Shown here: positions 32,502-51,823 of the stretch, piece after piece
Layout: each line of letters opens with the position of its first letter
Numbering within the stretch: position 1 is the first letter of the stretch
Origin: Sutcliffiella horikoshii
GTDB lineage: Bacteria > Bacillota > Bacilli > Bacillales > Bacillaceae_I
Reading direction: 5' to 3'
NCBI RefSeq assembly: GCF_002157855.1
Contig: NZ_CP020880.1
Span: 1,798,001 to 1,862,000 of the forward strand
DNA: 64,000 bases
Made by a program: the position numbers and the translations under genes
The notes under the pieces: model-generated
What the model was told of the DNA's origin: nothing
What the model saw: only the letters and a program-made list of their open reading frames with translations
The model's database searches: none

Positions 32502-33602
32502 TTGGCAAACAAGCGATCAACTCCGGACATAATATTAATTTTAACCACACTAACCTTGCTTGCAGTGGGACTTATCATGGTCTACAGTGCAAGTGCGGTA
32601 TGGGCTGATTACAAATTTGAAGATACATTCTTCTTCGCCAAAAGGCAGATGCTATTTGCTGGACTCGGTGTAGTTGCGATGTTTTTTATCATGAACGTCG
32701 ACTATTGGACATGGAGAACTTGGTCGAAATTAATTATTCTGGTATGTTTTTTCTTGCTTGTCATCGTTTTGATTCCTGGTGTCGGAATGGAGCGGAATGG
32801 TTCTAGAAGTTGGATTGGAGTTGGAGCGTTCTCGGTACAACCATCAGAGTTTATGAAAATAGCCATGATTGCATTTCTAGCAAAATACTTAAGTGAAAAT
32901 CAAAAAAAGATTACTTCCTTCAAAAAAGGACTGGTTCCGAGTCTTTCACTCGTATTTTTGGCTTTTGGAATGATTATGTTGCAGCCCGATCTAGGGACAG
33001 GAACTGTAATGGTTGGAACGTGTATTGTCATGATCTACGTTGCAGGTGCGAGGATCAGTCACTTTGTTGGTTTAGGCCTTGTCGGTGTAGCCGGATTTAT
33101 TGTTTTGATTCTTTCGGCACCATACCGGATAAAACGAATCACTTCCTTTTTGAATCCATGGGAAGATCCATTAGGAAGCGGCTTCCAGATCATTCAATCC
33201 TTATATGCAATTGGGCCAGGCGGATTGCTTGGATTAGGACTTGGTCAAAGCAGGCAGAAGTTCTTTTATTTACCTGAACCGCAGACAGACTTCATTTTTG
33301 CTATATTGGCAGAGGAACTCGGGTTTATCGGAGGCACATTTGTTGTTCTACTATTTGCATTGCTACTATGGAGGGGAATTAGGATTGCACTAGGTGCCCC
33401 TGATTTGTACGGCAGCTTCTTAGCGGTGGGAATCATCGCCATGATTGCTATCCAGGTCATCATAAATGTAGGAGTAGTAACCGGCCTGATGCCAGTAACT
33501 GGAATCACTCTCCCTTTCCTAAGTTATGGAGGCTCTTCGTTGACCTTGATGTTGCTAGCCGTCGGTATCCTCTTAAACATAAGCAGATACGCGAAATACT
33601 AA
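32502..33602 (+). CDS. spoVE: SpoVE, sporulation lipid II polymerase (SEDS family)
   Basis: 366-residue SEDS protein with ten predicted membrane segments. The sequence follows B. subtilis SpoVE closely (GLIMVYSASAVWADYKFED, MNVDYWTWRTWSKL, NGSRSWIGVGAFSVQPSEFMK, LPEPQTDFIFAILAEELGFIGG). The catalytic-type Asp lies in the conserved loop around APYRIKRITSFLNPWEDPLGSGFQ. It partners SpoVD in cortex synthesis. The start is TTG at 32502 with GAGGTG upstream. A terminator follows at 33605. Confidence 0.96.
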   Translation: MANKRSTPDIILILTTLTLLAVGLIMVYSASAVWADYKFEDTFFFAKRQMLFAGLGVVAMFFIMNVDYWTWRTWSKLIILVCFFLLVIVLIPGVGMERNGSRSWIGVGAFSVQPSEFMKIAMIAFLAKYLSENQKKITSFKKGLVPSLSLVFLAFGMIMLQPDLGTGTVMVGTCIVMIYVAGARISHFVGLGLVGVAGFIVLILSAPYRIKRITSFLNPWEDPLGSGFQIIQSLYAIGPGGLLGLGLGQSRQKFFYLPEPQTDFIFAILAEELGFIGGTFVVLLFALLLWRGIRIALGAPDLYGSFLAVGIIAMIAIQVIINVGVVTGLMPVTGITLPFLSYGGSSLTLMLLAVGILLNISRYAKY

Positions 33603-33604
33603 CA

Positions 33605-33640
33605 AAAGCCGAAATCAGCACCCACTGGTTTCGGCTTTCG
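33605..33640 (+). terminator. Hairpin terminator after spoVE
   Basis: AAAAGCCGAAA pairs with TTTCGGCTTT; the T run is short and interrupted (TTTCGTGTTG). Confidence 0.7.
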
Positions 33641-33688
33641 TGTTGTGTAAGAAATTTTAAACTAATCGGATTGTGGAATAGTCTTCTT

Positions 33689-33960
33689 GGTGATTCTTTA
33701 TCGTCGTGATGAAGGCCTTAGTGACGAAGAAAAAATAGAAGAGAAGTCCTCATGGCTGTTATGAAAACCCAAGTGACAAGGAAAAAGGACGAGAGAAGTC
33801 TTCATCGCTGTTATGAAGACGCCAGTGACAAGGAAAAAGGACGAGAGATGTCTTCATCGCTGTTATGAAGACCCCAGTGACAAGGAAAAAGGAGGAGAGA
33901 AGTCTTCATCGCTGTTATGAAGATATCAGTGACAAGGAAAAAGGAGGAGAGAAGTCTTCA
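33689..33960. repeat. Tandem array A, 52-bp period, about 5 units
   Basis: The box GAGAAGTC (or GAGATGTC) starts at 33741, 33793, 33845, 33897 and 33949, exactly 52 bases apart; a degenerate unit precedes at 33689. Each unit contains the palindrome GTCTTCAT-CGCTGTT-ATGAAGAC followed by AGTGACAAGGAAAAAGGA. 52 is not a multiple of three and the units abut without spacers, so it is neither coding nor CRISPR. Confidence 0.93.
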
Positions 33961-34479
33961 TTTATTAGAGAATGTAGCGCAAAGGCAAGCTCCTGCCTAT
34001 AATTCAAAGCATATGGGACCATGATTAAATTCTGGCAGTTACCAGAGTAAGTGCTTTTGTGTTACATATCAGGACATAATATGACAAAAAATAAAAATTT
34101 GATTACAATAACTAATATTCGTTGCACATCTTTAACAAGGGATATACTATTAAAGTATTGTGTTAACACTGTCTGCACAACTACATTTCATAACAAATAC
34201 TTACACCAAAGAAAAATATGCAGATGACAAATAATAACAGGTTTATAATCCAATAACATTAGGGTATGTAAACATAGTCCATTTTTAAATGAATTACATA
34301 ATTGTCATGAACCAAACTTTAAACCTTCAATGTGATGGGCCGGTGTACCGATATATGCCGAAATGCATAGTATATTAATAATCAATTTTGGGCCTACATC
34401 ACGATTTTAATGAAGGAATATTTGCTACTTAAAAAGGTTATGGAAAATGTTATATGAACGTGGATTTAGGAGGATTTAT

Positions 34480-35388
34480 ATGGAAGCTTTATTAAAGGAA
34501 CTACAAGAGAAAGAAGTGGGCAAGGTACTCCCTAATGAACCACTTGCAAATCATACGACGATGAAAATTGGCGGTCCAGCAGATGTACTTGTGGAGCCCA
34601 AAAGTTTAGAAAAACTTCAAGAAACAATGGAGACCATCAATAAATACAAGGTGAAATGGACGGCAATTGGCCGAGGATCCAATCTATTGGTCTCAGATCT
34701 TGGTATTGAAGGGGTCGTAATAAAACTCGGGAACGGAATGGATCACCTTGAACTAGAAGGTGAGGAAGTGCATGTTGGAGGAGGATATTCCTTAATCAAG
34801 CTCGTTACCATCATCAGTAAAAAAGGATTGACAGGTCTTGAATTTGCTGGAGGAATACCTGGCTCAGTAGGTGGCGCAGTCTATATGAATGCAGGCGCTC
34901 ATGGATCAGACATGTCTAAAGTATTAAAAAAGGCCCATATCTTGTTTGAGGATGGAAAGATGGAGTGGTTGACTGCAGATGAACTGAACTTCTCCTATCG
35001 AACATCGATTCTTCAAAAAGAGCGACCGGGAATTTGCTTAGAGGCAGTTTTAAATGTAGAACAAGGTAATCGCGAAGAAGTAGTCGCACAGCTTCAGAAA
35101 AATAAAGATTATCGTCGTGATACTCAGCCGTTTTCTTACCCATGTGCCGGTAGTATCTTCCGGAATCCACTTCCTGATTATGCTGGACAGCTGATTGAAA
35201 AAGCCGGATTAAAAGGACACAAAATTGGCGGCGCGAAAGTTTCTGATATGCATGCAAACTTCATTGTAAACGATGATGGCGCAAAAGCTCAGGATGTATT
35301 GGACCTAATTGAATACATTAAGGAAACGATCCTTGAGAAATACAATATCCAATTAGAAACGGAAGTTGAAATTATAGGAAGAAAATAG
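34480..35388 (+). CDS. murB: UDP-N-acetylenolpyruvoylglucosamine reductase MurB
   Basis: 302-residue FAD enzyme completing UDP-MurNAc synthesis. FAD-binding segments: [55 protein letters not shown]; catalytic Ser in [10 protein letters not shown]-terminal [15 protein letters not shown]. This is the type II (shorter) form usual in Bacillus. The start at 34480 has an excellent TTAGGAGG; the in-frame ATG at 34447 does not. Separated from spoVE by the murG-less gap. Confidence 0.96.
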
Positions 35389-51550: not shown

Positions 51551-51577
51551 TTTTAATTAAGTTTTGCATTAGCACTA

Positions 51578-51823
51578 GGTAGTCATACAGGATGAACGAG
51601 GACAATGTTTTACACTTTTCAGTGGGGAAGGTAGTCATACGCTTTGAACGAGGACAATGTTTGGCACTTTTACATGGGGAAGGTAGTCATACGCTTTGAA
51701 CGAGGACAATGTTTTACACTTTTCAGTGGGGAAGGTAGTCATACGCCCAGAATGAGGACAATGTTTCCCAAAATTCAAAGTCACAGGTAGTCATACGCTC
51801 TCGATGTAAGGATAATGTTTACT
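51578..51823. repeat. Tandem array B, 52-bp period, about 5 units
   Basis: GGTAGTCATAC begins at 51578, 51630, 51682, 51734 and 51786, exactly 52 bases apart. The unit continues GCTTTGAACGAGGACAATGT; the last copies diverge. Non-coding, between ileS and lspA (where B. subtilis has ylyA). Confidence 0.93.

Follow-up and report, generated by a model that had tools for sequence, protein, structure and literature searches.

A murG-less spoVE-murB junction in Sutcliffiella horikoshii, a second type of MurG encoded outside the dcw cluster and a family of polarised 52-bp repeat arrays

MurG is an antibiotic target and is commonly regarded as one conserved enzyme. In the genome of Sutcliffiella horikoshii (G000; 4.30 Mb) the interval between spoVE and murB contains no murG gene, and a tandem array of 52-bp units is located there. 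This raises the questions of which enzyme performs the lipid II synthase step in this bacterium, how old the loss of the cluster gene is, and whether the array is a trace of that loss. An initial annotation, made from the nucleotide sequence of a 64,000-nt stretch of this genome (C1:1798001-1862000; referred to below as the window), had interpreted the gap as the place from which an essential gene was lost or moved, a case it called unusual, with the repeat array marking the scar.

We designate the MurG type of the dcw cluster MurG1 and the NF009102/PRK12446 type MurG2 (both names were coined in this analysis). The following samples were compared: (i) 16 genomes of the genus, including G000, and two more genomes that represent one each of the other two genera in the family, (ii) the best 30 of 41 genomes by MurB, G000 included (fetched set), (iii) 80 loci of named relatives (L codes), among which eight of the 16 genus genomes recur as L061-L068, and (iv) an even sample of 199 Bacillales genomes (order sample). 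Sets (ii) and (iii) overlap.

The spoVE-murB junction

The interval between spoVE and murB (33603-34479) comprises 877 bp, with a G+C content of 35%. Neither MurG1 nor MurG2 queries gave a tblastn match within it at E ≤ 1e-3, the flanking SpoVE and MurB being detected, and any ORF inside it is shorter than 80 aa, which bears out the initial annotation that murG is missing from this place. The features of the region are presented in Table 1.

Table 1. Features of the spoVE-murB region and of a second array of 52-bp period (positions in the window)
Feature	Position	Strand	Basis and remarks
spoVE	32502..33602	+	Last gene before the gap; ORF; NCBIfam spoVE 595 bits (cut-off 449)
Intrinsic-terminator-like hairpin	33605..33638	+	14 pairs; directly 3' of spoVE
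Extra segment of ~419 bp holding the array	33634..34052		Six-gap alignment; exact borders alignment-dependent
52-bp tandem array	33695..33961	+	TRF, 5.1 copies, score 373; member of a dispersed, polarised family
murB leader, conserved across the genus	34053..34479	+	Gap alignments
Conserved block TTGCACATCTTTAACAAGGGATATACTATTAAAGTATTG, TTGCAC...TATACT	34122..34160	+	Pattern in 14 of 16 genus gaps
Putative sigma-B-like promoter	34241..34267	+	Hexamer-pair pattern GTTTAT-N15-GGGTAT
murB	34480..35388	+	NCBIfam murB 351 bits (cut-off 144.5); AGGAGG site upstream
Second array of 52-bp period	51577..51799	+	TRF; different unit; directly behind the hairpin-plus-T run of another gene

The junction is devoid of murG in all 16 genomes of the genus and in both genomes representing the other genera of the family, so that an assembly fault confined to G000 does not account for the gap. 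An intact murG is also absent from the junction at 24 of the 30 fetched loci (G000 included; the remaining six carry the gene) and at 21 of the 80 named loci (L061-L068 among the 21; 59 carry the gene), the two sets being overlapping ones. Since several assemblies have the same murG-less junction, it is scarcely conceivable that an assembly error or collapsed sequence conceals the gene; the tandem repeat in the gap might arouse such a suspicion, but most murG-less junctions contain no tandem array, and a match of MurG1 level is absent from the whole G000 genome. The initial annotation, which took the loss to be recent, had also noted that a murG-less cluster shared by relatives would make it an old lineage trait, and the relatives do share it. 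We regard the junction as the result of an old and real gene replacement within a known enzyme family and not of a recent accident.

The terminator-like hairpin is one of two found by a scan of the region, against 0.6 expected from shuffled sequences, and its arms are kept in five aligned relatives. The segment that holds the array is missing from four of these relatives (G001, G004, G007 and G009), while in the fifth, G012, the corresponding place is occupied by extra sequence unrelated to it. In G000 the segment is bordered by near-identical 11-mers, GCTTTCGTGTT (at 33634) and GCTTTTGTGTT (at 34053). The five tandem units that had been read in the gap were recovered by TRF. The accompanying figure of about 480 AT-rich bases falls somewhat short in length, the sequence between the end of the array and murB being approximately 518 bp.

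The other 15 gaps of the genus are 363-905 bp long (441-471 bp in ten of them), and TRF detected a 52-bp array in none of these. Within the leader of murB we searched for hexamers resembling the sigma-B consensus. A sigma-B-like pair is located 189-286 bp upstream of murB in all 16 genus gaps, which are related and not independent sequences, and any such pair occurred in 429 of 4800 shuffled gaps. Judged by this pattern, the putative promoter may place murB and the downstream genes under stress control. No Rfam family was found in the gap at its gathering score; the sole match, to a plant snoRNA (19.6 bits, gathering score 50), was rejected as a chance similarity.

MurG2 and its distribution in Bacillales

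A search of the whole genome for MurG, which the initial annotation had proposed as a check, revealed a single full copy (C1:2860168-2861187, minus strand), situated 1.0 Mb from the junction. The next match reached 48.9 bits, far under the cut-off. The encoded protein (i) is a full member of NF009102 (515 bits; cut-off 339), (ii) passes the cut-off of the MurG equivalog TIGR01133 (277 bits; cut-off 250.25) and (iii) contains both GT28 domains, PF03033 (148.9 bits) and PF04101 (121.6 bits). Among solved structures it comes closest to MurG from P. aeruginosa (3s2u; 7.9e-40) and from E. coli (1f0k; 4.8e-39). The NF009102/PRK12446 type is a family already annotated, and names like murG2, used in UniProt for proteins of the B. 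cereus group, are taken here to denote its members.

A quick tree built from 60 MurG2 rows and 22 of the available MurG1 rows (82 in total) separates MurG1 from MurG2 by a branch with the value 100* and places the protein of G000 on the MurG2 side. Being in the wrong clade and not encoded between spoVE and murB, it does not qualify as an orthologue of MurG1. The expectation that a copy of murG must lie elsewhere was therefore justified, although that copy is a paralogue of a separate clade and not the relocated cluster gene. The idea that the cluster murG itself has recently moved, leaving a repeat scar behind, could appeal to the presence of one MurG gene 1.0 Mb away; it is rendered highly improbable by the clade of that gene, by the murG-less junctions throughout the genus, by the absence of the array from all 15 other genus gaps, and by the occurrence of MurG2 together with the cluster murG in six of the 27 murG-bearing named genomes that were examined.

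The amino acid sequence identity between MurG1 and MurG2 is 31-36% (six loci). MurG2 is encoded outside the dcw cluster, and its grouping inside the genus largely follows that of the species. Its neighbourhood is mostly variable, as judged from 20 neighbourhoods representing 17 families: neighbours are common to the three genomes of the window's own family (f1); beyond these, a series of four genes recurs in G034 and G043, three gene families in G023 and G029, and only single families in the others. A conserved operon around MurG2 was considered and rejected, there being no general one in this sample.

In the order sample, MurG1 was called at 309 bits or more against TIGR01133 (the next score down being 285) and MurG2 above the NF009102 cut-off. 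MurG1 was found in 91 and MurG2 in 128 of the 199 genomes; 71 genomes have MurG1 only, 108 MurG2 only, 20 both and none neither, where independence would predict about 39 genomes with neither. A Fisher test on this co-occurrence takes no account of relatedness, and a tree-aware pairs test, in which the six available pairs (too few for significance; median p 0.25) showed the expected direction 3.2 times on average and the opposite direction never, points the same way. Among the named relatives, MurG2 presence was scored in 48 of the 80 loci, comprising all 21 without murG at the junction and 27 of the 59 with it; MurG2 is present in 20 of the 21 and in six of the 27, and no further match above 35 bits was found in the 21 murG-less genomes. 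The exception, S. deserti (L066, taken as G011), has neither an NF009102 nor a TIGR01133 match, and this absence may be an assembly gap, as the assembly is rated 80% complete.

The state of the junction changed at least seven times on a quick tree of SpoVE, MurB and DivIB (81 rows, from the window and all 80 named loci), six of these changes being forced by starred, well-supported branches. The three proteins are dcw proteins, encoded beside the trait being traced, and the count is blind to loss versus gain, the direction being directly visible only in L140. Near-sister species differ in their complement: Bacillus suaedaesalsae has MurG2 only and B. pinisoli both types, and the same holds for Metabacillus indicus (MurG2 only) and M. 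idriensis (both). In L140 (Bacillus sp. FJAT-27445), whose genome encodes MurG2, the spoVE-murB junction contains a disrupted remnant of murG1 (2398-2691 of the locus), matching MurG residues 19-117 in tblastn with 37% identity (66 bits). This locus represents a loss of murG1 caught midway.

Two further observations concern the distribution of the two types. MurG1 matches with one in-frame stop, reflecting either overrun of the match or decay, were seen in G037, G056, G095, G104, G151, G183 and G200, and the four with a TAG stop all belong to genus g42. In a sample of the phylum (149 genomes), MurG2 exceeded the cut-off in 15, i.e. G000 and 14 genomes from outside the class (e.g. G265, G271 and G291); 11 of the 14 have it as their only NF009102 match.

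We also compared the residues of 61 MurG2 rows (59 distinct) and 82 MurG1 rows (72 distinct), some genes having been entered twice, at positions of the cleft whose list and E. coli numbering are in part our assumption. Ten of these positions (H19, H125, E126, N135, S192, N199, R261, E269, Q288 and N292) are kept in all 61 MurG2 rows and are the same in 80 to 82 of the 82 MurG1 rows; the donor chemistry of MurG2 should therefore be that of MurG. Other positions distinguish the two types. Y106 is replaced by F in all 59 distinct MurG2 sequences, while all 72 distinct MurG1 sequences have Y; Q127S and N128D are likewise fixed (59 of 59 MurG2), and G17 has become A in 57 sequences and T in the other two. 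At position 16, S (36 distinct MurG2) and T (23) both occur, and all 64 MurG1 rows that reach it have T. Such fixed differences lie around the acceptor. In a review (PMC4790310), T16, H19 and Y106 are described as critical for the binding of lipid I and invariant among MurG homologues. Of this triad, MurG2 keeps H19 (59 of 59), with Y106 and often T16 changed, and its Y106F substitution contradicts the invariance of Y106 stated there.

It is by necessity that MurG2 can be assumed to make lipid II, since 108 of the 199 order genomes have MurG2 and no MurG1. One may ask whether MurG2 mainly serves another role, e.g. in the synthesis of another polyprenyl-linked glycan, with an unrecognised enzyme making lipid II. 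The fixed acceptor-side changes (Y106F, Q127S, N128D) and the 20 genomes in which MurG2 accompanies MurG1 would fit such a role, but we consider it improbable in view of the strict complementarity of the two types (no genome of the 199 lacks both), the score of the G000 protein above the TIGR01133 cut-off with both Pfam domains, and the weakness of the only other MurG match in that genome.

The 52-bp array family

By DNA search, matches to the 52-bp unit, whose length is close to five helical turns, were detected in eight of 11 Sutcliffiella genomes and in none of six other genomes (17 in all). G000 contains at least 90 of them, as obtained by scoring 40 of 50 candidate places, and they form at least 36 arrays. 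With this number of related arrays along the chromosome, and with no array in the other murG-less gaps of the genus, the array at the junction is not the scar of murG loss that it had been taken for.

The arrays of G000 are distinctly polarised: the 14 arrays on the plus strand reach no further than 2.049 Mb, and the 22 on the minus strand are confined to positions from 2.232 Mb onwards. The dnaA gene is found at the start of the contig, and the cumulative GC skew has its maximum at 2,096,836, within the 2.05-2.23-Mb stretch, with sampled skew positive before this point and negative after it. Taken together, these data indicate that 36 of 36 arrays found by this search point with the replication fork. 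A mere echo of gene direction was rejected as the cause of this orientation, since only 161 of 201 sampled ORFs of at least 120 aa are leading, and 15 arrays lie in convergent or divergent gaps. The gaps holding the arrays, labelled from mechanical ORF calls that may err in individual cases, comprise 21 leading co-directional, 11 convergent, four divergent and no lagging co-directional ones, while sampled gaps of at least 150 bp comprise 44, 11, 15 and six, respectively. A single array of the 36 runs into an ORF of at least 100 aa. On the strand of the array and within 220 nt, a terminator-like hairpin is located upstream of 23 and downstream of nine of the 36 arrays, compared with 2 of 180 shuffled sequences.

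The strands of the arrays were also compared in two further genomes. In G001, 96 of 106 rows correspond to at least 38 arrays, 20 of them on the plus strand below 1.95 Mb and 18 on the minus strand above 2.25 Mb; the sampled GC skew switches sign between 2.06 and 2.15 Mb, and the arrays may be partly orthologous to those of G000, so that the two genomes are not independent samples. In G002, 54 of 79 rows correspond to at least 30 arrays, 22 on the plus and eight on the minus strand, with one odd minus array (2,590,960) among the plus arrays, which speaks against strict polarity; these are counts of array strands. Six more arrays of the family were identified by TRF in stretches read for other reasons and were oriented by identity to the consensus. 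Two (2,196,178 and L279) agree clearly with the polarity and two (2,214,568 and L260) narrowly, whereas those at 2,169,029 and 2,170,712, which lie 72-74 kb beyond the terminus, depart from it in reading better in plus orientation (0.59 vs 0.49 and 0.61 vs 0.56, respectively). The second 52-bp-period array of the window (Table 1) has a unit whose identity to that of the first is 0.40, the maximum for shuffled sequences being 0.39. A dif site with up to three mismatches to the Firmicutes consensus was found in none of three genomes. A dif-like candidate with seven mismatches (C1:2,096,916), 80 bp from the GC-skew maximum of G000, is too weak to be claimed.

The position of the array between terminator and leader, along the direction of transcription, might suggest that it took the place of murG as a working element in the regulation of the murB operon. 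We regard such a role as very unlikely, given that four near relatives keep the leader without the array, that TRF detects the array in none of the other gaps of the genus, that G000 contains at least 35 sister arrays elsewhere, and that 11 of the 36 arrays lie in convergent gaps.

Proposed history and comparison with known systems

In our opinion it is very probable that MurG1 was lost before the split of Sutcliffiella and its sister genera and that MurG2 took over the lipid II step, that such replacement was repeated in Bacillales, and that the array was a later and separate event. MurG1 would have disappeared from the spoVE-murB junction before these genera diverged, a loss that could be tolerated because MurG2, encoded alone elsewhere, would supply the lipid II synthase step, i.e. 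the transfer of GlcNAc from UDP-GlcNAc onto lipid I. Replacement would have occurred several times in Bacillales, presumably passing through genomes with both genes, followed by in-place decay of murG1. After the loss, murB would have been left behind the spoVE terminator with its own conserved leader, and the 52-bp array would have been inserted later and independently between the two, as a member of a dispersed family that often lies beside terminators and is oriented with replication. The data establish the absence of the gene, the identity of the paralogue, the phylogenetic pattern, one relic, and the array family with its polarity; the activity of MurG2, the time of the loss, the function of the promoter and the gain of MurG2 ahead of the loss of MurG1 are inferences.

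A broader reading has two parts, and we offer it tentatively, as one that is rather less probable than its negation. It holds that MurG2 constitutes a further class of lipid II synthase, divergent at the acceptor site, by which MurG has been displaced time and again in Bacillales (108 of 199 genomes being without MurG proper), and that the 52-bp arrays are replication-polarised landmarks seeded behind leading-strand terminators, either as composite orienting signals for a translocase of the SpoIIIE/SftA type or as products of fork-coupled insertion. If a second class has replaced MurG several times, the rules of lipid I recognition (Y106, N128) and ideas on the stability of the dcw cluster would need revision, and MurG inhibitors may fail to reach species with MurG2 only. 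The series of MurG1 only, both types, relic and MurG2 only would make the replacement of an essential gene directly testable, and a genus-specific repeat that is oriented with the fork in almost every case offers a handle on the origin of chromosomal sequence polarity.

Among open-licence papers, judged mostly from titles and abstracts, we found no description of murG loss, of an NF009102-type MurG as sole lipid II synthase or of repeated replacement of murG by this type, and the open-licence papers likewise provided no match, as far as their accessible text goes, for the 52-bp repeat. The accessible portions of PMC8992544, PMC5039524 and PMC3110155 contain nothing about murG loss or the repeat.

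The arrays may be compared with two known types of chromosomal element. They are similar to REP/BIME elements in being dispersed and intergenic, with a hairpin-prone unit. REP/BIME elements associated with RAYT (Y1) transposases are defined as repeats flanking the Y1 transposase gene. A Y1 match is present in all 11 Sutcliffiella genomes (one in nine of them and two in G003 and G008; that of G006 is a 24-bit fragment), and in G000 it corresponds to an IS200-like transposase (L302, 1273-1965; G000:C1:4006055-4006390). The 52-bp unit was found within 1.5 kb of none of the 12 Y1 loci, and G003, G006 and G010 have a Y1 match and no array match; a RAYT origin of the arrays is thus unsupported. The second type is the SpoIIIE recognition sequence (SRS), given as GAGAAGGG in PMC5869595. 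The exact octamer is polarised on the G000 chromosome (10 leading and no lagging occurrences in 304 kb). The consensus of the 52-bp unit does not include this octamer and contains, across the join of adjacent units, GAGAAGTC, which corresponds to six of its eight bases; the arrays also differ from the SRS in being much longer and almost all intergenic. Because the unit holds GAGAAGTC and the exact octamer GAGAAGGG is polarised, a translocase-orienting role of the arrays is possible on the basis of these motifs.

MurG2 resembles the canonical dcw MurG (TIGR01133; B. subtilis, E. coli) in its PF03033 and PF04101 domains, in most cleft residues and in scoring above the equivalog cut-off. It differs in clade, in its low identity, in the substitutions Y106F, Q127S, N128D and mostly G17A, and in its location outside the dcw cluster. 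A comparable protein is MglA of Kitasatospora viridifaciens, described in PMC8092295 as a distant MurG homologue encoded outside the dcw cluster and able to replace MurG, with the canonical murG kept in all strains surveyed for MglA. By this description both proteins are distant MurG types encoded away from the cluster; murG is retained alongside MglA, whereas it has been lost from the genomes with MurG2 only.
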